Source: Chloroflexota bacterium (GTDB taxonomy: Bacteria > Chloroflexota > Dehalococcoidia > DSTF01 > JACRBR01). Taken from it: DNA of 15,255 nucleotides. Numbering within the stretch: the first letter of the stretch is position 1; every line of letters begins with the position of its first letter. Location: contig JAKAMA010000011.1 of NCBI GenBank assembly GCA_021813085.1, forward strand, positions 1 through 15,255, read 5' to 3'. Made by a program: the position numbers and the translations under genes. The notes under the pieces are model-generated. The model ran no database searches. It had not been told where the DNA came from and saw nothing but the letters and a program-made list of their open reading frames with translations. Positions 7,198-15,255 of this stretch are shown here, in pieces.

Positions 7198-7222
7198 CGC
7201 GTCTCGTCAGGCCGCATCCGGA

Positions 7223-7243
7223 CTACCACGGAGATCATGGTAG
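7223..7243. promoter_or_regulatory. Short hairpin or operator-like inverted repeat before the COG4280-like gene
   Basis: CTACCA and TGGTAG, six bases each, flank a nine-base spacer, 26 bases upstream of the membrane protein start at 7197. It could be an operator or an RNA hairpin in the 93-base gap after the hydrolase gene. No T-run follows it on either strand, so it is not a typical terminator. Support is weak. Confidence 0.25.
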
Positions 7244-7290
7244 CGCGCGCCCTTGCGGCGGGCCATCGCGGCCGCCGGGCCGCCGCGCGC

Positions 7291-7947
7291 TCAGACGCGC
7301 AGCCAGCGCGCGAGCGCCGCCGCCGCCTCGGCGAACACGTCGTCGCGCGTCCTCGCGCTCGCCCTCGGCGGCGCGAAGCTGTGGTCGGCCTTCTCGAGCA
7401 GGTGCACCTTCGCGCGGCGCATCCTCGCGGCCACGACACGCAGCTCGTCGGGCGACGCGAAGGCATCGCGCGTGCCGCTGCAGAAGAGCGTGCGGACCCG
7501 TACCGACGCCAGGTGCGCATCGCGGGACCGCTCCGGCAGCCCCGGCGGGTGCAGCGGGTAGGCGAAGAGCGCCAGCGCGTCCACCACCACCCGCCCGGCC
7601 ACCACCTGCGAGGCGATGCGCCCGCCCATCGACCTGCCGCCGACGCACAGCTTTTCGCCCGGCGTCCGCACGGCGTCGATGACGGCGCGCCACGTCGCCT
7701 CCAGCACTGGCGTCCGGTCGGGTGTCCGGCGGTGCGCCTCCATGTACGGGAACTGGAAGCGCACGACGCTGACGCCGCGCGCCGGCAGGACGTCCGCCAA
7801 GCAACGCCCGAACGGGTCGTCGATGTTGGCGCCGGCGCCCGGCGCGTACACGAGCGTCCACGGTGGCGCCCCACCGCGCGCCGCCGTACGGACGGCGCTG
7901 ACCGATGTCCCGGCCGTCACCTCAACGCGGAGCATCGTATCCGGCAT
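7291..7947 (-). CDS. Alpha/beta hydrolase (KANL3/Tex30-like, dienelactone-hydrolase type)
   Basis: This 218-residue cytoplasmic enzyme has the alpha/beta-hydrolase triad: nucleophile Ser106 in the elbow GGRSMGGR, acid Asp161 in CSGTRDAF and His189 in KADHSF. The opening TLVYAPGAGANIDDPF and the motif FPYMEAHRRTPDR fit the small bacterial hydrolases related to KANL3/Tex30. Their substrates are unknown; an ester or thioester hydrolase is likely from the triad. There is no signal peptide. The ATG at 7947 has GAGGA three bases upstream. It lies 17 bases after the lipoprotein stop and is surely co-transcribed with it. A further 93 bases separate it from the COG4280-like gene, so the operon may continue. 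Confidence 0.88.
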   Translation of the reverse strand: MPDTMLRVEVTAGTSVSAVRTAARGGAPPWTLVYAPGAGANIDDPFGRCLADVLPARGVSVVRFQFPYMEAHRRTPDRTPVLEATWRAVIDAVRTPGEKLCVGGRSMGGRIASQVVAGRVVVDALALFAYPLHPPGLPERSRDAHLASVRVRTLFCSGTRDAFASPDELRVVAARMRRAKVHLLEKADHSFAPPRASARTRDDVFAEAAAALARWLRV

Positions 7948-7964
7948 CGATCCTCGTGGCGGTG

Positions 7965-8702
7965 CTACCCCGCCGCGATCCGCCGCAGCACCAGGTTGAC
8001 CAGCGGCGTCAGGTCCGCCATCGGCGGCGGCTCATTCGCCGCGGAGCCGACGACGGCCGTCACGTTCCCCTTGCGGAAGCCGACGACGAGCACCGTCAGA
8101 TCGATGATCGTGCCGGAGACGTTGACCTTGCCGGCCAGCGTCGCCGCGAACGACCCATCGCCCGTGGCGGGAAACGTCACCGGCTTGACGACGACGGCCT
8201 TCGGGTCGGTGAACAGCGTGCCGAACGCCTTGGCCAGCTCGCCCGGCTGCTGGTAGCGCGCGGCCGCCTCGTTCGAGCAGTCGATCGCGCCCGCCGCCGT
8301 CGCGTACACCGTCAGGCTCGAGAAATACGAGACCGTCTGGCCGCTGATGAACGCGCTCACCGGGTCCGCCGGCTGGTCCGCCACCGTGCGCCCCAGCAGC
8401 CGCCCGCAGCGCGCGTTCGAGGCCGCGCTCGACGGGTCCGCGGCCGCCGCCGCGGCGTTGTCGGTCGTCGTATCGGTCATCACCTTCCAGCCGGCCGGCA
8501 GGTCGGCGGGCTCCAGTGACGCGCGCGCCAGCAGTGCGCGCGCCTGGTCGATGGTCATCGGCCGGGTGGCTGCCGAGCGCGACGCCGTCGAGCCGGCGGC
8601 CGGCACGGTCGCCGTGGAGCCGCCCTTCTTCGAGCCACCGCAGGCAGCGGTCGCCAGCGAAGCGGCCAGTACGAGGACGCCGAGCAGGACGGTCAGTCGC
8701 AT
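7965..8702 (-). CDS. Putative lipoprotein of unknown function
   Basis: This 245-residue protein has a signal sequence (MRLTVLLGVLVLAASLATAA) followed by Cys21 and a Gly/Ser/Lys-rich tether CGGSKKGGS, which fits an exported lipid-anchored protein, although the position three before the cysteine is Thr rather than Leu. A low-complexity Ala/Ser/Thr spacer follows, then a folded domain from about residue 50 with DLPAGWKVMTD, Cys99 and Cys142 (a possible disulfide pair) and a hydrophobic strand IIDLTVLVVGFRKGNVTAVV. The domain is not recognised. Of three candidate in-frame starts (TTG 8720, ATG 8714, ATG 8702), the last places a basic residue directly before the hydrophobic core. It is the first gene of the minus-strand run and is divergent from ilvD. 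Confidence 0.75.
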   Translation of the reverse strand: MRLTVLLGVLVLAASLATAACGGSKKGGSTATVPAAGSTASRSAATRPMTIDQARALLARASLEPADLPAGWKVMTDTTTDNAAAAAADPSSAASNARCGRLLGRTVADQPADPVSAFISGQTVSYFSSLTVYATAAGAIDCSNEAAARYQQPGELAKAFGTLFTDPKAVVVKPVTFPATGDGSFAATLAGKVNVSGTIIDLTVLVVGFRKGNVTAVVGSAANEPPPMADLTPLVNLVLRRIAAG

Positions 8703-8817: not shown

Positions 8818-8822
8818 GGAGG
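8818..8822 (+). promoter_or_regulatory. Shine-Dalgarno site deciding the ilvD start
   Basis: GGAGG lies five bases before the ATG at 8828. The ilvD frame is open far upstream, with an ATG at 8734, but only 8828 has this signal and gives the normal N-terminus [10 protein letters not shown]. Confidence 0.8.
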
Positions 8823-8827
8823 ACACC

Positions 8828-10513
8828 ATGAGCTTCGACCCCAAGTGGAACTCGCGCACCATCACCGACGGCCGCGACCGCGCCGCCGCCCGCTCGTACT
8901 TCTACAGCATCGGCCTGACGCGCGAGGACATCGAGAAGCCGTTCGTCGGCATCGCCAACACCTGGATCGGCACGATGCCGTGCAACTTCAACTTGCGTGC
9001 GCTCGCGGTCAAGGTCGCCGACGGCGTCCGGAAGGCCGGCGGCACGCCGATGGAGTTCAACACGATCGCGATCAGCGACGGCATCACGATGGGCACGGAG
9101 GGCATGAAGACCTCGCTCGTCTCCCGCGAGCTGATCGCCGATTCCATCGAGCTCTGCACGCGCGGCTACATGTTCGACGCGCTCGTCTGCCTCGTCGGCT
9201 GCGACAAGACCATCCCGGCGGCGGCGATGGCGCTGGCGCGGCTCAACGTCCCCGGCATCATCCTCTACGGCGGCTCGATCCTCCCCGGCACCTTCGACGG
9301 CCGCGATGTGAACGTGCAGGACGTCTTCGAGGGCGTCGGGCAGAACGCCGCGGGGCTCCTCTCCGACGCGGACCTCGACCGCCTCGAGCGCGCGGCGTGC
9401 CCGGGCGCCGGCGCCTGCGGCGGCCAGTTCACGGCGAACACGATGGCGCTCGCGATGGAGTTCATCGGCCTCTCGCCGATGGGCAGCGCCAGCGTGCCGG
9501 CCGTCGACCCTCGCAAGGATGATGTCGGCGTACGGGCGGGCGAGGTCGTCATGGACGTGCTGCGCCGCAACCAGCGTCCGCTGGACATCCTGACGCGCGG
9601 GGCGTTCGAGAACGCCATCGCGGGCGTCGCCGCGACCGGCGGCTCGACGAACGCCGTGCTGCACCTGCTCGCCATCGCCCGCGAGGCCGGCGTGCCGCTG
9701 GCGATCGACGACTTCGACGCCGTCAGTGGCCGCACGCCGCTGCTCGCCGACCTGAAGCCCGGCGGGCGCTACGTCGCCGCCGACCTCGACCGCGCCGGCG
9801 GCGTCCAGCTCGTCGCCCGCCGCCTCGTCGAGGGCGGCTACGCGGACGGCGCCCAGGCGACGCCCACGGGCAGCTTCGCCGAAGCGTCGCGCACCGCGGT
9901 CGAGACGCCGGGTCAGGACGTCGTGCGCCCGCTCGCCAACCCGCTGAAGGCGACGGGCGGCCTCGTCATCCTGCACGGGAACCTGGCGCCGGAGGGCTGC
10001 GTCGTCAAGGTCGCCGGCCACGAGCGGCTGGCGCATCGCGGCCCGGCGCGCGTCTTCGACCGCGAGGAAGACGCGATGGCGGCCGTCACCGGCCACCGCA
10101 TCCAGCCCGGCGATGTCGTCGTCATCCGCTACGAGGGCCCGAAGGGCGGCCCCGGCATGCGCGAGATGCTCGGCGTCACGTCGGCGATCGTCGGGGAAGG
10201 CATGGGCGAGACGGTGGCGCTGCTGACCGACGGCCGCTTCAGCGGCGCCACGCGCGGCCTGATGGCGGGCCACGTCGCGCCGGAGGCCTTCGTCGGCGGC
10301 CCGATCGCCGCCCTGCGCGACGGCGACACGGTCAGCTTCGACATCCCGCACCGCCGGCTCGACGTCGAGCTGAGCGACGACGCGATCGCCGCGCGCCTGC
10401 GCGCCTGGCGCGCGCCGGAGCCGCGCTACACGACCGGCGTCATGGCCAAATACGCCGCCCAGGTGTCATCGGCGAGCGAGGGTGCGATCACGCGCGCGGG
10501 TGTAACGAGCTAA
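8828..10513 (+). CDS. ilvD: Dihydroxy-acid dehydratase
   Basis: This cytoplasmic iron-sulfur enzyme dehydrates 2,3-dihydroxy-3-methylbutanoate and its methylpentanoate homologue to the 2-oxo acids, the third common step of valine, leucine and isoleucine synthesis. The 561-residue length is normal. Visible features are MPCNFN (Cys52), VGCDKTIPA (Cys125; Lys127 is the probable carbamylated Mg-ligand position) and [16 protein letters not shown] (Cys197), giving the three cluster cysteines, plus the C-terminal [20 protein letters not shown] with the conserved serine. No other ilv or leu gene is in the window. The 125-base gap to the divergent lipoprotein gene shows no obvious leucine/valine leader peptide or attenuator. 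The stop codon sits in the loop of a small hairpin, just before a change to lower GC. Confidence 0.97.
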
Positions 10514-10520
10514 GGCTCGT
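10505..10520. other. Small perfect hairpin around the ilvD stop codon
   Basis: ACGAGC and GCTCGT (six pairs) flank a four-base loop TAAG that contains the ilvD stop. No T-run follows, so it is a weak terminator candidate at best. It lies at the composition change between ilvD and the ATPase cassette. Confidence 0.4.
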
Positions 10521-10529
10521 GATGTCTGG

Positions 10530-10535
10530 TATTGT
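10530..10535 (+). promoter_or_regulatory. -10 box of the ATPase cassette (leaderless)
   Basis: TATTGT lies six bases before the ATG at 10542, placing the transcript start at or next to the start codon. There is no Shine-Dalgarno site (the preceding bases are TCGACC). No -35 hexamer is evident. This suggests the cassette has its own promoter rather than depending on ilvD. Confidence 0.4.
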
Positions 10536-10541
10536 TCGACC

Positions 10542-11738
10542 ATGGTGAAACTCAGCGTTCGTCACGATGATGATGCAGCGAAGGCGCCAACGAAGCAGGT
10601 GTCGCGCTTCACGCATTGCCACGTCGAGAACTGGCGGAATTTCACTCAATTCGACATCGCTCTTGAACGGCGAGTGTTCCTCGTCGGACCAAACGCGTCA
10701 GGAAAGTCGAACCTGCTCGATGTCTTTCGCTTCCTGCATGACATTGTCGCCGTTGGCGGTGGGTTCCAAGAGGCCGTACGGAGGCGCGGGGGCGTCTCAC
10801 GTCTCCGATGCTTAGCCGCCCGACGGTACTCGGATCTCGTCCTAGACGTGATGCTTGGTGCGTCCGACGGCGAACCCGTATCGCAGTACGAACTACGATT
10901 CACGCAGGACAATCTCCAGCGACCGCTTATCAAACGGGAGCGCGTAGGTCGACATGGCGTTGAACTACTGAGCCGCCCCAACGCGGATGACGAGAAGGAT
11001 CCCCAGAGGCTAACGCAGACCTATCTAGAGCAGGTCAATGTCAATCAGGAGTTCCGTGACGTGGCCGAGTTCCTCCGCACAGTTCAGTACATGCATCTTG
11101 TGCCGCAACTGGTGCGCGAACCTGATCGCTCGGTTGGCAGACGCAACGACCCCTTTGGCGGAGATTTCCTTGAGCAAGTGGCCGGAACGACGGAGAAAAC
11201 CCGCAATGCTCGACTTCGCCGCATCAGAGATGTCCTGCGGCTTGCGGTCCCCCAACTCAAGGATCTCGAGTTGTGGCGTGACGTGCGCGGGACGCCCCAC
11301 TTACGCGGCAAGTACGAGCACTGGCGCGCTCAAGGAGCGTGGCAAGATGAAGAGCAGTTCTCGGACGGGACGCTCCGCCTCCTCGGGCTTCTGTGGGTGA
11401 CCTTGGACGGTACGGGGCCGCTTCTCTTAGAAGAACCAGAGCTTTCGCTGCATCCAGAGGTTATTCGGTTTCTGCCCCAGATGTTCGACAAGATCCAGCG
11501 CAGATCTGGTCGGCAGGTGATGATCAGCACGCACTCAACTGACCTCCTTCGCGACGATGGGATCGGGTCGGACGAGGTCTTGCTCCTGCTGCCCGGGTCA
11601 GAAGGCACGGCCGTCAGGCCGGCCAGCGGTTTCAAGCAGATCAGAGAACTGCTCGAGCACGGATTGACGATCGGCGAGGCAGTCGTACCACTCACCCGGC
11701 CTGACCGAGCCGAGCAACTGTCGCTATTCGGAGACTAG
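10542..11738 (+). CDS. AAA/ABC-type ATPase (AAA_21, OLD/RecF-like)
   Basis: This 398-residue protein begins with HVENWRNFTQFDIALERRVFLVGPNASGKSN, the strand-then-Walker-A layout of SMC/RecF/OLD-type ATPases (Walker A residues 49-56). A signature-like FSDGTLRLLGLL (273-284), Walker B LLLEEPELSLHP (294-305) and the switch histidine in MISTHSTDLL (His331) complete the nucleotide site, which in this group forms on head-to-tail dimerisation. There is no fused TOPRIM or nuclease domain; a TOPRIM-like partner gene follows after one base, so the two probably form a complex, as in the PARIS AriA/AriB or Gabija-type architectures (analogy). The protein ends in EQLSLFGD, containing the clamp-binding pentapeptide QLSLF. 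GC content is about 53% on one hand-counted line against about 70% in ilvD, suggesting acquisition by transfer. Confidence 0.9.
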   Translation: MVKLSVRHDDDAAKAPTKQVSRFTHCHVENWRNFTQFDIALERRVFLVGPNASGKSNLLDVFRFLHDIVAVGGGFQEAVRRRGGVSRLRCLAARRYSDLVLDVMLGASDGEPVSQYELRFTQDNLQRPLIKRERVGRHGVELLSRPNADDEKDPQRLTQTYLEQVNVNQEFRDVAEFLRTVQYMHLVPQLVREPDRSVGRRNDPFGGDFLEQVAGTTEKTRNARLRRIRDVLRLAVPQLKDLELWRDVRGTPHLRGKYEHWRAQGAWQDEEQFSDGTLRLLGLLWVTLDGTGPLLLEEPELSLHPEVIRFLPQMFDKIQRRSGRQVMISTHSTDLLRDDGIGSDEVLLLLPGSEGTAVRPASGFKQIRELLEHGLTIGEAVVPLTRPDRAEQLSLFGD

Positions 11739-11739
11739 G

Positions 11740-12363
11740 GTGCAGGTTGTGCCGGTGGAGCTTACCGGCGCAGTCGAGGGAATCATCGACGAGGCCGTAC
11801 TGCGCCGCGTCGTCACTCATGTTGGTGGCGCCGTAGGCCCCGTCTATGGCCGCGAGGGCAAAGCATCCCTGATTGAGCGACTACCAGCGTACAACGCGGC
11901 AGCTCAATTCGCTCCTTGGCTCATCTTCATCGATCTCAACGGGGGCGCTGACTGCGCCCCAGACTTCCGCTCACGCCACCTAGATCACGTCTCGGCGTTC
12001 ATGTGTTTCCGGGTGGCTGTGCACGAGATTGAGGCCTGGCTAATGGCCGACCGCGAAGAGCTGGCCGAGTACCTGCACGTTAAGGTAGACACCATACCGG
12101 GGAATCCTGAAGCTATCGAAAAGCCCAAGGCGCAAATGTTGCAGATCGCCAGACGATCAAGAAGCAGAGTTGTGCGCGAGGACATGCTGCCCCGACCATC
12201 TGGTGGGGCCAAGGTCGGGCCGCTGTACAGCGCCCGAATGATCGAATTCGCCACCAAGCGCTGGAGGCCGCAAGTCGCCGCGATGGCCTCCGACAGCTTG
12301 CGGCGTTCGCTACAGCGAATCTCGGAGTTGATCGAAGCGTACCGTGCTCATCTGAGCCTCTAG
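11740..12363 (+). CDS. TOPRIM-like (DUF4276-like) partner of the AAA ATPase
   Basis: The 207-residue product starts at a GTG one base after the ATPase stop, with GGAG six bases upstream inside the ATPase gene, so the pair is translationally tied. Early residues TGAVEGIIDEAVLRRVV (Glu13, Asp17, Glu18) and the later strand PWLIFIDLN (Asp65) resemble the acidic motifs of TOPRIM nuclease domains, although the usual DxD reads Asp-Leu-Asn. A conserved-looking block RVAVHEIEAWLMADREELAEYL (91-112), a PK/SR stretch with REDMLPRPSGGAKVGPLY and a C-terminal WRPQVAAMASDSLRRSL follow. I assign it from memory to the DUF4276-type proteins found beside AAA ATPases; the name is unverified. Its likely role is the effector or nuclease of a defence pair (inference). 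GC is as low as in the ATPase gene. Confidence 0.78.
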   Translation: MQVVPVELTGAVEGIIDEAVLRRVVTHVGGAVGPVYGREGKASLIERLPAYNAAAQFAPWLIFIDLNGGADCAPDFRSRHLDHVSAFMCFRVAVHEIEAWLMADREELAEYLHVKVDTIPGNPEAIEKPKAQMLQIARRSRSRVVREDMLPRPSGGAKVGPLYSARMIEFATKRWRPQVAAMASDSLRRSLQRISELIEAYRAHLSL

Positions 12364-12370
12364 CCGAGAA

Positions 12371-12384
12371 GCCTCATTTGGCTC
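12371..12384. terminator. Weak hairpin after the cassette
   Basis: AGCC and GGCT flank the loop TCATTT, eight bases after the stop of the TOPRIM-like gene; a nearby GAGCC (12354) gives an alternative longer pairing. There is no T-tract. It may end cassette transcription but support is slight. Confidence 0.2.
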
Positions 12385-12402
12385 AACGATACTCGCGTCC
12401 TG

Positions 12403-12465
12403 AGGGGCGGTGTCGCGCGGCGATGCGATCCCTGCGACGATGGTGTTGGCGTCTAGGCAGATGCG
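12403..12465 (-). pseudogene. Remnant of a PIN-domain toxin (N-terminal 21 codons only)
   Basis: The minus strand encodes RICLDANTIVAGIASPRDTAP, matching the first strand and helix of PIN-domain RNases (typical opening MRxxLDxNxxVxxxxSPxG), with the first catalytic aspartate present in LDAN. There is no start codon in this frame back to a TGA near 12528; the position expected to be ATG reads AAG (12466-12468), consistent with loss by a point change. After SPRDTAP the resemblance stops and the frame runs antisense into the end of the TOPRIM-like gene. The catalytic core beyond the first motif is missing, so it cannot encode a working toxin. It overlaps the last codons of the upstream small gene, as PIN toxins often do with their antitoxins. 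Confidence 0.65.
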
Positions 12466-12719
12466 CTTCGGCGTCCTGAGCGCTCTCCTGCGCGCCGCTG
12501 ATGTGTAGACGCCTTCCGGCGGCCTTGAGCCTTGTCAACTTCGAGGGTCGCCAGCACCTCCTCCTCGGTGACACCGGCCATCTTCTCGTGGATCGCGGAC
12601 AGTAGCTCGAGCGCCGCCTTCCGGAGCCGCGCGGTTTGACCGCTGGCCTTCGCCGCACGAACCGCGGCATGAACCTCGTTGTCCCGTGCCAGCCTTGCCT
12701 TCATGTCTGTCCTGGTCAT
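12453..12719 (-). CDS. Small hypothetical protein, probable orphan antitoxin of the PIN remnant
   Basis: This 88-residue basic protein (MTRTDMKARLARDNEVHAAV...) is predicted to be helical in its first 60 residues and ends in a Lys/Arg/Ser-rich tail. I recognise no family. Its position suggests an antitoxin: it is directly upstream of, and overlaps by a few codons, a PIN-toxin remnant in the same direction, and it has its own promoter-like box (12744-12749). GGAG lies ten bases before the ATG, a little far. The tail after about residue 65 may be altered, since it coincides with the damaged junction. If the toxin is dead, the gene is under no need to persist and may itself be decaying. Confidence 0.6.
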   Translation of the reverse strand: MTRTDMKARLARDNEVHAAVRAAKASGQTARLRKAALELLSAIHEKMAGVTEEEVLATLEVDKAQGRRKASTHQRRAGERSGRRSASA

Positions 12720-12743
12720 GTGCGTCGTGCTCCGGTTCGCCCA

Positions 12744-12749
12744 AGTATA
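12744..12749 (-). promoter_or_regulatory. -10 box of the small antitoxin-like gene
   Basis: The minus strand reads TATACT, one mismatch from consensus, 24 bases before the ATG at 12719. This leaves a leader of about 18 bases. The -35 region is G-rich with no match to TTGACA. Confidence 0.45.
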
Positions 12750-12764
12750 GCCTACTCCGCCCGC

Positions 12765-13328
12765 CTACCCTCGCACCGCCCGCCAACTGAACCCCACGCG
12801 CCTGCCGTGGTGCACGATGATCTGCGCGAAGCCCGCCCGCGCGAGGCGGTCGCCGAACGTGTTCGGGTCCACCGGGTTGCGGTCATCGAACAGGTGGTAG
12901 ACGTTCCAGAGCAGGCTCGGCGTGCTGTCCGCGCCCGCGAACGGCGCGCCCGGGCGCAGCACACGCGCCGTCTCAGCGAGCAGCGCGTCCTGGCGCGCCG
13001 CCGGCACGTGATGCAGCATGGTGAAGCACACCGCCGCGCTGAACGACGCGTCCGGGAACGGCATCGCGCTCGCGTCGCCCTCGACGACCATCACGTTCGT
13101 GCCATCGAGCCGCCGCCGCAGCGACGCGGCGAGCCTCGGGTCGATCTCGATCGACGTGACGTGCGGCACGCGCGCACGGAGCCAGTCGGTGCTGAGCCCG
13201 GGGCCCGGACCGAGTTCCAGCACGTCGCCGCCGAGGTCGAGCCCGCGCAGCACGGCCGGCATCATCCCGTCCTGCAGGGCGCGCGCCCAGCCCCGGGAGT
13301 TGCAGTACCAGCGGTGGATGAGGTTCAC
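12765..13328 (-). CDS. Class I SAM-dependent methyltransferase (Methyltransf_11 type)
   Basis: This 187-residue enzyme has the SAM-binding motif DVLELGPGPGLSTDWL (35-50), the acidic end of strand 2 in SIEIDP (59-63), GDASAMPFPDASF (84-96) and the post-motif CFTMLHHV. This is the small-molecule-type methyltransferase plan. The start NLIHRWYCNSRGWAR is typical of a widespread uncharacterised bacterial group. The GTG at 13326-13328 overlaps the DUF2442 stop in GTGA, so translation is coupled; longer upstream openings in this frame are shadows of DUF2442. The substrate is unknown. The final domain is short, with no cap or extra domain. It is the last gene of a minus-strand run and its end lies 15 bases from the next promoter box. 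Confidence 0.88.
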   Translation of the reverse strand: MNLIHRWYCNSRGWARALQDGMMPAVLRGLDLGGDVLELGPGPGLSTDWLRARVPHVTSIEIDPRLAASLRRRLDGTNVMVVEGDASAMPFPDASFSAAVCFTMLHHVPAARQDALLAETARVLRPGAPFAGADSTPSLLWNVYHLFDDRNPVDPNTFGDRLARAGFAQIIVHHGRRVGFSWRAVRG

Positions 13329-13594
13329 GGGGCAATCTGCACGCCCGCCTCGTACAGGAACTCCGGCGCGAGGTCGGCGTCGTTCGGCCAGACGACGGTG
13401 CCGGCCTCCTCGTCGACCTCCACGCGCGCAAAGAACTCCGGATCCTTCAGCGGTTCGAACACTTCGCCCCAGAGTTCGCCCGTCAGGTCGACGCGGCGGA
13501 CCACCCCGTCGTCGAACGTGACTTCGAGCGTGTACGGCGGGATCACGCGGACGGCCGTGACCTGCTCCAGCCCGGTCGCGCGGTGCGTCGTCAA
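13325..13594 (-). CDS. DUF2442 domain protein
   Basis: This 89-residue protein matches DUF2442: a strand pair TLEVTFDDGVVRRVDLTGELWGEVFEPLKDPEFFARVEVD followed by the signature GTVVWPNDADLAPEFLYE. The family is of unknown function and is commonly found next to DUF4160, where the pair has been suggested to be toxin-antitoxin-like. Here it follows the DUF4160 gene by five bases. The start is a TTG with GGAG (13603-13606) eight bases upstream, the site spanning the DUF4160 stop. The stop overlaps the methyltransferase start. Its opening residues MTTHRATGLEQV lie before the domain, leaving little extra sequence. Confidence 0.9.
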   Translation of the reverse strand: MTTHRATGLEQVTAVRVIPPYTLEVTFDDGVVRRVDLTGELWGEVFEPLKDPEFFARVEVDEEAGTVVWPNDADLAPEFLYEAGVQIAP

Positions 13595-13599
13595 TCGTC

Positions 13600-13860
13600 T
13601 TACTCCAGTGGAGCGATCGGCCGCAGCGGCACCTGCTGCTCAGAGCGCTCCCAGTCATCGAGCAGGTCCGCAACGTGCTCGTTCGCCCATTCTACAACAA
13701 GTCTGCGCGCCCGCGGCGGCAGCTCACCGCGGGTCAACTCCGGTGGCGTGATGGTAAAGACCGCCTTGTGCGCGCCGTACTGTACATGAAAGTGCGGCGG
13801 TCGGTGTTCGCGTGTGAACATCCGGATGATGATCCCGTAGAACCGCGAGATCTCCGGCAT
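13600..13860 (-). CDS. DUF4160 domain protein
   Basis: This 86-residue protein matches DUF4160 from end to end: MPEISRFYGIIIRMFTREHRPPHFHVQYG, with the EHxPPHFH block, then GELPPRARRLVVEWANEHVADLLDDWE. The dense histidines in EHRPPHFH look like a metal or nucleic-acid site, but the family has no established function. It is paired with DUF2442 in many genomes. The start ATG is 16 bases after the stop of the beta-propeller gene, without a strong Shine-Dalgarno site. Whether the pair is a toxin-antitoxin module or a housekeeping regulator cannot be told from sequence. Confidence 0.9.
   Translation of the reverse strand: MPEISRFYGIIIRMFTREHRPPHFHVQYGAHKAVFTITPPELTRGELPPRARRLVVEWANEHVADLLDDWERSEQQVPLRPIAPLE
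13603..13606 (-). promoter_or_regulatory. Shine-Dalgarno site for the TTG start of DUF2442
   Basis: GGAG on the minus strand, eight bases before the TTG at 13594, directly beside the DUF4160 stop codon. It supports the TTG start and translational coupling of the DUF4160-DUF2442 pair. Confidence 0.6.
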
Positions 13861-13876
13861 CGCTACGGCGCGCCGC

Positions 13877-15255
13877 TCATGGCGGGAACGCCGCCTGCAT
13901 CAGCGTGTCGCCGTTCAGCACGTAGATGATGTTCTTCCCTTCGTCCACCGCCACGGCCCGCAGGTCCGTGAACGCCGGGCTGACGATCTGGCGCAGGAAC
14001 TGGCCATCGGCCGATGCGATGACGACGCGCTTGTTCCCGCGGTCCGCCACGACCAGCCGATTCGAGCCCGGAAGCACCGAGAGCGAACCCGGGGACACCA
14101 GCGGCGTGTCGATGCCCGCGAGCGGGAACGGCGTCTCCGCCTTCCCGACGAAGCGGCGGATCCCGAGCTTCGTGTCGAGCACGTACACGTCCTGCCCAAC
14201 CGCGATCTCCGTCGCGTTCTGCAGGTTCGTCGGGTCCAGCAGGCCCGTGCGCTCGCTGTCGAACCCGCCCTGTCCGGGCAGATAGCGCCACACCTGGTTG
14301 TCCTTCACGTCCAGCACGTACAGGTTGCCAGCCGCGGCCGCGATCGCGTCCACCGAACCCAGGGACGAGGCGCCCCGCACCGTCATCGGGAGCGTGCCCT
14401 TGCCCGGGAAGTACGCGAACGCCTGCCGCTTGTCGTCGATGATGATCAGCGACCCGCTCTGCTCCGACCACGCGATCTGCACGGGCCGCGCCGCGGTCGC
14501 CATGCCCGCGAGCGTGCCGTCTTGCAGGATCGTCTCGGGCGGTGTCTTGCCGTCGAGCGCGAGCCGCAGCACACGGTGCCCCTTGGCGTCGAGGAAGTAC
14601 GCGTTCGTGCCGCCGACGACCGAGCGCGTGATCGAGAGCGAACCCGTCACCGACTGCGCGAGGTCCGCGATCGTCGTCCAGCTCTTGATCTCGTACACCG
14701 CATCGAGCACCGCCAGCGACGACGCGACGTCCGTCTCCAGGGCCTTCACCTCGCCGTTGTCCGGATGGATCTTCGCCGCGTCGGCGAGGCTCGACTGCGC
14801 CGCCGTCAGCATCTGCCGCTTGACGCCCGGGTCGCTCGTCGCCTGCGCCTGCGCGTTCGCGGTGCGCGCCGCCGCGACCATCGCCGTGAAGCGCTGCTCA
14901 CGGTTCTGCGCTACCGAGCCGGGGATCGTCCACCACGCGACGAGCCCGAGCAGCACGAGCACGATGACACCGAACACCGCGAGCTTCGGCACCCGCACCT
15001 GCGGCACGATGCCCGCGCCCGTCGTGCGCCGGTAGTGCGGGCCGGCACCTTCGCCCCGCAGCCGGACGCCCGCAATCGGCGGCGGCGCCGTCGATGCCGT
15101 GATCTCGCGCACCTGCTCGGCGACCGGGCGGCGCGGCAGGTCGAAGCCGCCCGCGGCCAGCGCCGCCATCGCCCGCTCCGGCGCCACGTCATCGGCCGCC
15201 GGCTCCAGCGCCGCCTCGCCGATGGCCGGCCGGGCGCCGCCGTCCTCGTCCGGCG
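13877..15255 (-). CDS. Membrane-anchored protein with an extracytoplasmic beta-propeller (5' end outside window)
   Basis: The frame is open to the window edge, so the N-terminus is missing; 458 codons are visible. The first 80 or so are Ala/Pro/Glu-rich and probably disordered. A basic-flanked membrane segment follows (VPKLAVFGVIVLVLLGLVAW, about 15,000-14,920), then a helical part (REQRFTAMVAAARTANAQAQ). The rest shows repeated blade-like motifs such as NAYFLDAKGHRVLRLAL, NLYVLDVKDNQVWRYLP, DVYVLDTKLGIRRFV, RLVVADRGNKRVVIASADG and NIIYVLNGDTLM, at about 45-residue spacing, typical of NHL or six-bladed propellers. Such domains bind ligands or proteins outside the cell. In related high-GC bacteria this layout can follow a PP2C-type phosphatase or other cytoplasmic domain, which would lie beyond the window; this is a guess. 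Confidence 0.78.
   Translation of the reverse strand, partial: PDEDGGARPAIGEAALEPAADDVAPERAMAALAAGGFDLPRRPVAEQVREITASTAPPPIAGVRLRGEGAGPHYRRTTGAGIVPQVRVPKLAVFGVIVLVLLGLVAWWTIPGSVAQNREQRFTAMVAAARTANAQAQATSDPGVKRQMLTAAQSSLADAAKIHPDNGEVKALETDVASSLAVLDAVYEIKSWTTIADLAQSVTGSLSITRSVVGGTNAYFLDAKGHRVLRLALDGKTPPETILQDGTLAGMATAARPVQIAWSEQSGSLIIIDDKRQAFAYFPGKGTLPMTVRGASSLGSVDAIAAAAGNLYVLDVKDNQVWRYLPGQGGFDSERTGLLDPTNLQNATEIAVGQDVYVLDTKLGIRRFVGKAETPFPLAGIDTPLVSPGSLSVLPGSNRLVVADRGNKRVVIASADGQFLRQIVSPAFTDLRAVAVDEGKNIIYVLNGDTLMQAAFPP

Follow-up and report, generated by a model that had tools for sequence, protein, structure and literature searches.

A HEC-01-type ATPase–Toprim gene pair whose ATPase ends in a conserved, putative sliding-clamp binding motif

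Split ATPase–Toprim systems of the HEC-01 type (Hma-embedded candidate 01) are the closest described relatives of the locus analysed here. Several HECs are reported to have shown antiviral activity, HEC-06 being named in an excerpt of one source (PMC12988326) and HEC-04 in an excerpt of another (PMC12111858). HEC-01 is listed as a detected system in the available part of a third (PMC12724379), the one source on defence among those naming it, and no more HEC-01-specific literature than that detection listing was found, the original HEC description lying outside the search. For the PARIS system, the excerpt at hand describes AriA as holding AriB inactive and AriB as cleaving tRNA (PMC12409363). 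A cellular point of reference is RecF, for which an interaction with the sliding clamp DnaN is reported in a partly available source (PMC10287930).

The window (the whole stretch of DNA analysed, 15,255 nucleotides) contains a cassette at positions 10542–12363, which ORF calls resolve into an ATPase gene and a Toprim-like gene on the plus strand; as an earlier note on this DNA had stated, the second gene starts one base after the first has ended (11738 to 11740; Table 1). The neighbours are ilvD and minus-strand antitoxin-like and methyltransferase ORFs. Both proteins are recognised by PADLOC profiles, the ATPase by PDLC04180 (HEC-01A; E 1.9e-157) and its partner by PDLC04194 (HEC-01B; E 1.3e-58), so that the adjacent genes correspond to the candidate defence system HEC-01. 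The profile search was one of the checks proposed in the earlier note, and together with three relatives that lie between HmaA and HmaB (see below) it favours the note's reading of the pair as a candidate defence cassette.

Table 1. Positions of the cassette, its sequence motifs and its flanking features in the window.
Feature	Positions	Strand	Basis or remark
HEC-01A, ABC/AAA_21-type ATPase, 398 aa	10542..11738	+	ATG start; Pfam and PADLOC profiles
HEC-01B, Toprim-like protein, 207 aa	11740..12363	+	GTG start
Walker A GPNASGKS, residues 49-56	10686..10709	+	sequence, column invariance
ABC signature-like FSDGT, residues 273-277	11358..11372	+	sequence, column invariance
Walker B LLLEEPE, residues 294-300	11421..11441	+	sequence, column invariance
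Switch histidine motif STHS, residues 329-332	11526..11537	+	sequence
Putative sliding-clamp (DnaN) binding motif QLSLF, residues 392-396	11715..11729	+	published consensus
E13-G-x-x-D17, first acidic motif of Toprim-like site	11776..11790	+	alignment
D65-L-N67, DxD-like motif	11932..11940	+	alignment
E98-A-W-L-x-x-D104, second conserved acidic cluster	12031..12051	+	alignment
PIN-type toxin gene remnant, 25 residues, cut on cassette side	12421..12495	-	G303 homologue
Antitoxin-like ORF paired with PIN remnant	12456..12719	-	G303 homologue
ilvD, host flank	8819..10513	+	28 bases upstream of cassette start

Sequence comparison identifies the first gene product as an ABC-type ATPase with intact motifs. 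It matches Pfam AAA_21 (E 1.9e-32), all 8000 of 8000 candidate ATPase relatives lay at E <= 0.001, and the 120 matches listed, the window's own protein excepted, are 68–79% identical to it. The Walker A and B motifs, the FSDG signature and the STH switch named in the earlier note are all present, and in 65 aligned rows the residues G49, P50, N51, A52, G54, K55 and S56 of Walker A, S274, G276 and T277 of the signature, L295, E298, P299 and E300 of Walker B, and S329 and T330 of the switch motif are invariant.

The second protein is, judging from alignment and a structure model, a Toprim-like partner whose acidic residues are conserved and whose nuclease activity is putative. All 51 aligned rows, the window's included, share E13, G14, D17, D65, E98, W100, L101 and D104, and K130 follows D65-L-N67, E98 and D104. 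The earlier note was right about Toprim-like acidic residues, which are invariant, and misread the first motif as E-x-G; it is E13-G14-x-x-D17. Position 67 is aspartate in 40 of the 51 rows and asparagine in 11, the window among the latter, a substitution that could weaken metal binding. In the model of HEC-01B (pLDDT 95.2), the resemblance to Toprim domains that the note had anticipated was recovered by a modest margin: OLD and AriB Toprim domains are the top rows of the comparison, with a Z difference of less than 1 between the AriB row and the first unrelated row. Foldseek gave no match to this model at E <= 0.001, and a sequence search against the PDB gave none that was significant (best E 0.25).

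The earlier note had also likened the architecture to Gabija, PARIS and OLD nucleases. A split ATPase–Toprim module is indeed present; it is not itself any of the three. PARIS was rejected because the second protein had no AriB profile match at E <= 1 and matched HEC-01B models only; it has 207 aa, as against 306 residues in the AriB chain 8ux9_A. The PARIS AriA-type model PDLC02980 does match the ATPase, far more weakly than HEC-01A (E 7.4e-31); in its length and in the range it matches, this model is identical to Pfam AAA_21. Gabija was rejected because ATPase and Toprim are encoded by separate ORFs with no helicase gene adjoining, and class 1 of the OLD family because there are two ORFs rather than a single protein with a C-terminal Toprim domain; OLD nucleases and GajA are one polypeptide. 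RecF was likewise rejected, as its profile scored 27.4 bits, where the cut-off is 172. Foldseek placed PtuA-type chains of retron/Septu complexes at the top of the matches to the ATPase model, followed by SMC heads and GajA. The likeness to Septu and retron PtuA lies in the ATPase fold, whereas the partner is Toprim-like here and PtuB, an HNH nuclease, there. HEC-01 itself is matched in both profiles, in gene order and in size.

The two genes are tightly linked in the genomes compared. Among the best 80 of 446 relatives found by the ATPase in GTDB (bacterial by title), 78 loci have a HEC-01B-like match beside the ATPase on the same strand, with broken or split frames in four of these (L008, L016, L033 and L082); in the other two, the contig stops short, 1 and 58 bases past the end of the ATPase. 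On a tree of the 80 ATPases, the 21 phylum labels require 49 changes, for a minimum possible of 20, whereas shuffled labels require 56.7 on average and none of 200 shuffles was as low as 49, so the labels are still somewhat clustered. This scrambled tree fits frequent transfer, though open forks, binning errors and paralogy could also contribute to the scrambling. Of 301 genomes in the window's phylum, 36 hold an ATPase that matches PDLC04180 at E <= 1e-20, and four, the window's included, carry the close subfamily (> 500 bits; next best 145). A search with the partner found six of 291 genomes, namely the same four and two very weak ones, the match in G220 being partial. The ATPase was matched in none of 14 control genomes. 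Plasmids and phages often carry defence genes; the family was found in none of 72,556 plasmid and 50,697 phage records, collections that are biased and were searched without a positive control. Viral contigs yielded a single relative, L115, with the degraded tail motif QLALV. This ATPase (about 7200–8300 of the contig) has no adjoining HEC-01B; a second, similar ATPase comes after it.

Composition and flanking sequence argue for a foreign origin. The cassette has 60.1% GC and the remainder of the window 71.6%, and GC3 is 0.677 for the ATPase and 0.702 for HEC-01B, compared with 0.90–0.97 for 12 of 14 other window genes measured; the remaining low values belong to the antitoxin-like ORF (0.716) and a DUF4160 ORF (0.770). 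The line counts on which the earlier note had based its claim of low GC are exact (32 of 60 on lines 11461 and 12061, 42 of 60 on line 9541). Its promoter-like box did not hold up, as a weak test found no sigma-70-like sites in 10300–12800; no promoter or terminator belonging to the cassette was found. Nor were there convincing terminal repeats or a mobile-element boundary, the repeats around the cassette being short and at chance level.

Vertical inheritance beside ilvD, which the earlier note had named as the outcome that would speak against it, was rejected. All ten genomes searched, the window's included, have an ilvD homologue, and the HEC-01A profile found nothing at E <= 1e-20 in seven of seven same-family relatives. 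The sequence adjacent to ilvD differs in all six such relatives compared (G301, G277, G302, G303, G291 and G304): blastn alignments of window positions 10000–13900 to them stop within about 50 bases of the end of ilvD, and the cassette is absent. Frames translated over the first 760–900 bases downstream of ilvD in the six were read by eye: G301 shows an HNH-like ORF, G277 a HAD-like one, G302 one resembling a response regulator, and G303 a complete PIN-like gene with its antitoxin; the G301 and G303 contigs end about 0.7–0.8 kb after ilvD. The HNH-like ORF in G301, a same-genus relative with an ilvD 97% identical to that of the window (G301:C96:1-804, L137), suggests that this site may collect different cargo within the family.

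The toxin–antitoxin debris described in the earlier note is real. The window keeps 25 residues of a PIN-like gene, 76% identical to the N-terminal part of the G303 protein, and then diverges; we take it, by eye, to be a PIN remnant. The antitoxin-like ORF, which had no family match above cut-off in profile searches and is present in two of 40 genomes searched (window's included), has a 72% identical homologue in G303 beside the PIN-like gene and ilvD. The PIN-like gene is whole in G303 and truncated here on the side of the cassette, which is thus flanked by it and by ilvD. On these compositional and comparative grounds, we infer that the pair is a horizontally acquired module.

The order HmaA–HEC-01A–HEC-01B–HmaB occurs at three relatives of the locus (L076, L045 and L053), in line with the candidate's name. 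The window copy differs from this description in that no Hma gene was seen beside it: none of the six window neighbours scanned matched Hma (the contig is only 15.3 kb), and there was no clear defence gene among them. The methyltransferase ORF gave a partial match to the mad2 model (E 6.3e-16), possibly a generic one. A wider survey, also suggested in the earlier note, covered 144 nearest ORFs from 76 loci (L033, L034, L036 and L047 were skipped), chosen mechanically by length and including some phantom ones; 139 of the 144 were scanned, and the five longest, one of them an HmaB (L053:5330-8854), were excluded. HmaA-like genes made up nine of 139 nearest ORFs and one of 92 fourth neighbours (p 0.054), and HmaB-like genes 11 of 139 and three of 92 (p 0.17). 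The linkage to known defence genes sought in that survey is thus seen as embedding at three loci, and the overall excess of Hma-like genes beside the pair is not significant, so that the three embedded loci carry the defence-context argument. Two further observations concern neighbouring genes. A PrimPol-like protein (PADLOC E 4.2e-98) is encoded just downstream of one HEC-01 pair with a clamp-type tail (L073:8007-10487), and in the window a DUF2442 ORF (13325–13594, minus strand) and a DUF4160 ORF (13600–13860, minus strand) lie side by side and presumably form a toxin–antitoxin-like pair.

The new element, overlooked in the earlier note, is the C-terminus of the ATPase. It reads ...RAEQLSLFGD, with QLSLF two residues before the end, an exact match to the canonical sliding-clamp (DnaN) binding motif, and the conservation of this tail points to putative clamp binding. 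The canonical bacterial ligand is given as QL(S/D)LF at the C-terminus in an excerpt of PMC9690074, and a relaxed consensus, Q-phi-x-[LM]-[FL], in one of PMC13254535. The available part of PMC12309361 describes the C-terminal QLSLF of B. subtilis PolC as binding DnaN in vitro with micromolar affinity and quotes submicromolar affinity for E. coli, and mycobacterial ImuB uses QLPLWG according to an excerpt of PMC10421592. The window motif conforms to the relaxed consensus near the C-terminus, in a tail that is modelled as unstructured with low confidence (last block 55).

The published consensus occurs within the last 15 residues of 73 of 79 locus ATPases and 94 of 120 listed homologues (the window protein included), and a loose form of the motif within the last 25 residues of 76 of 79 and 115 of 120; as the relatives share descent, these counts are not independent tests. 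The 79 were drawn from 83 possible locus ATPases (the 80 loci plus L083, L085 and L086, with L083 duplicating L080) after L020 (open end) and L033, L034 and L036 (broken or split frames) had been dropped. As controls, neighbouring ORFs had the published consensus in one of 585 and the loose form in four of 666, and the same ATPases had the motif outside the last 15 residues in none of 120 and one of 79 proteins. In the 65 aligned rows, which had been picked without regard to the tail, Q392 and L393 are conserved in 65, L395 in 55 and F396 in 62, and residue 394 is free (S, A, T or M). P383, T385, R386 and P387 just upstream are likewise conserved, the distance from motif to stop varies among relatives, and one homologue (P0173) has two motif copies in tandem. 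The published consensus is missed by six of the 79 (L021, L026, L068, L069, L072 and L086), and in three of these (L026, L068 and L069) the tail is changed even by the loose pattern and a full-length HEC-01B is retained. HEC-01B itself has no clamp-type tail motif in any of 72 proteins.

Beyond this clade the picture differs. None of 26 distant HEC-01A proteins, fetched from 45 distant matches in the phylum, has the tail motif near its C-terminus, so that the clamp motif is a clade-specific extension that sets the window's clade apart from the distant HEC-01A examined. Many of these distant proteins (L087–L112) end, by eye, in an LGxLWxxGxLGG-like sequence. In the host lineage, Y-family polymerases (PF11799) end in QLRLW (G000 and G301) or QLSLW (G277) at three of 12 loci and, by eye, in QxxLW at five more, with no C-terminal clamp-type motif at the remaining four. 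DnaN was found in six of eight genomes and had no match in the window's own assembly (G000), which is 77% complete. The dnaN match in the same-genus relative (G301:C230:31268-32383) contains one in-frame TAG, which is either an assembly error or real. Among the literature matches listed, none reported that an anti-phage ATPase carries a clamp motif.

The best explanation, which we hold with modest confidence on grounds of sequence, modelling and analogy, is that of a HEC-01-type defence module gained by horizontal transfer, in which a clamp-docked ATPase would control a Toprim nuclease. An ATPase dimer or oligomer would restrain the Toprim nuclease, as AriA does AriB, and the tail would dock this assembly on the sliding clamp used in replication and so place it at replisomes or on clamps that stay behind on replicating DNA. 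The trigger could be an infection-specific change, such as a replisome taken over by the phage, an anti-host protein of phage origin or replication intermediates of an unusual kind, upon which the ATPase would switch state and the nuclease would be released or activated. The nuclease might then cut replicating DNA or cellular RNA, and phage production would stop. A more specific proposal, which we put forward tentatively as somewhat short of probable, is that an immune ATPase with a dedicated clamp ligand stations an ATPase–Toprim nuclease on the host clamp, where it would guard the replisome or clamp, sense when a phage takes over replication and strike replicating DNA.

The pair could also be a HEC-01 defence system in which the tail serves for docking or oligomerisation, with HEC-01B or another ATPase subunit as its partner, and resembles a clamp ligand by coincidence. 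This would account for the conservation of the residues before the motif, and with HEC-01B beside the ATPase at 78 of 80 close-clade loci, tail and partner are hardly separable within the clade. Yet clamp ligands show this same Q-L-x-L-F pattern, its third position free, the three ATPases with changed tails keep their full-length HEC-01B, and 11 of the 26 distant HEC-01A genes, all without the tail, adjoin a HEC-01B-like gene (E <= 1e-3), all of which makes such a docking peptide unlikely in our view, if still worth weighing.

More remote from defence, the pair might act as a RecF/RecR-like repair or replication-gap factor recruited by DnaN. RecR binds RecF through its Toprim domain, a clamp motif would suit repair, and neither the phage nor the plasmid records searched contained a match to the family. 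RecF, RecR and DnaN offer the nearest cellular analogy, one of design and not of membership, because there too an ABC ATPase and a Toprim protein are tied to the sliding clamp, a tie that is putative here. RecF interacts with DnaN, yet according to the same excerpt (PMC10287930) no clear clamp motif was found in it, unlike in the window ATPase. The low RecF profile score, the patchy and horizontally spread distribution, the embedding in Hma loci at three places and the invariant acidic residues, which are as in Toprim nucleases, all count against a repair role, which we regard as improbable. We give slightly less credence again, and thus very little, to a module directed against plasmids or mobile elements in general, or to a selfish toxin-like pair, either of which would reach replicating foreign DNA via the clamp and not be mainly anti-phage. 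Excerpts of PMC4549789 and PMC9690074 do name IS transposases and the toxin SocB as clamp-bound enzymes, and the cassette abuts a toxin–antitoxin remnant; against this, no transfer genes were found among the window ORFs scanned, and the repeats around the cassette do not exceed chance.

The ATPase–Toprim pair is already catalogued as candidate HEC-01, and what is new is a C-terminal clamp motif found clade-wide. A conserved clamp ligand on the ATPase makes the question of what such systems sense directly testable. If the preferred reading of a clamp-docked HEC-01-type defence module is true, immune sensing would be joined to the replisome, in parallel to the RecF–RecR–DnaN repair machinery, and the clamp-tailed HEC-01 clade, with its 21 phylum labels, would to our knowledge be the first known clamp-tethered ATPase–nuclease immune system.
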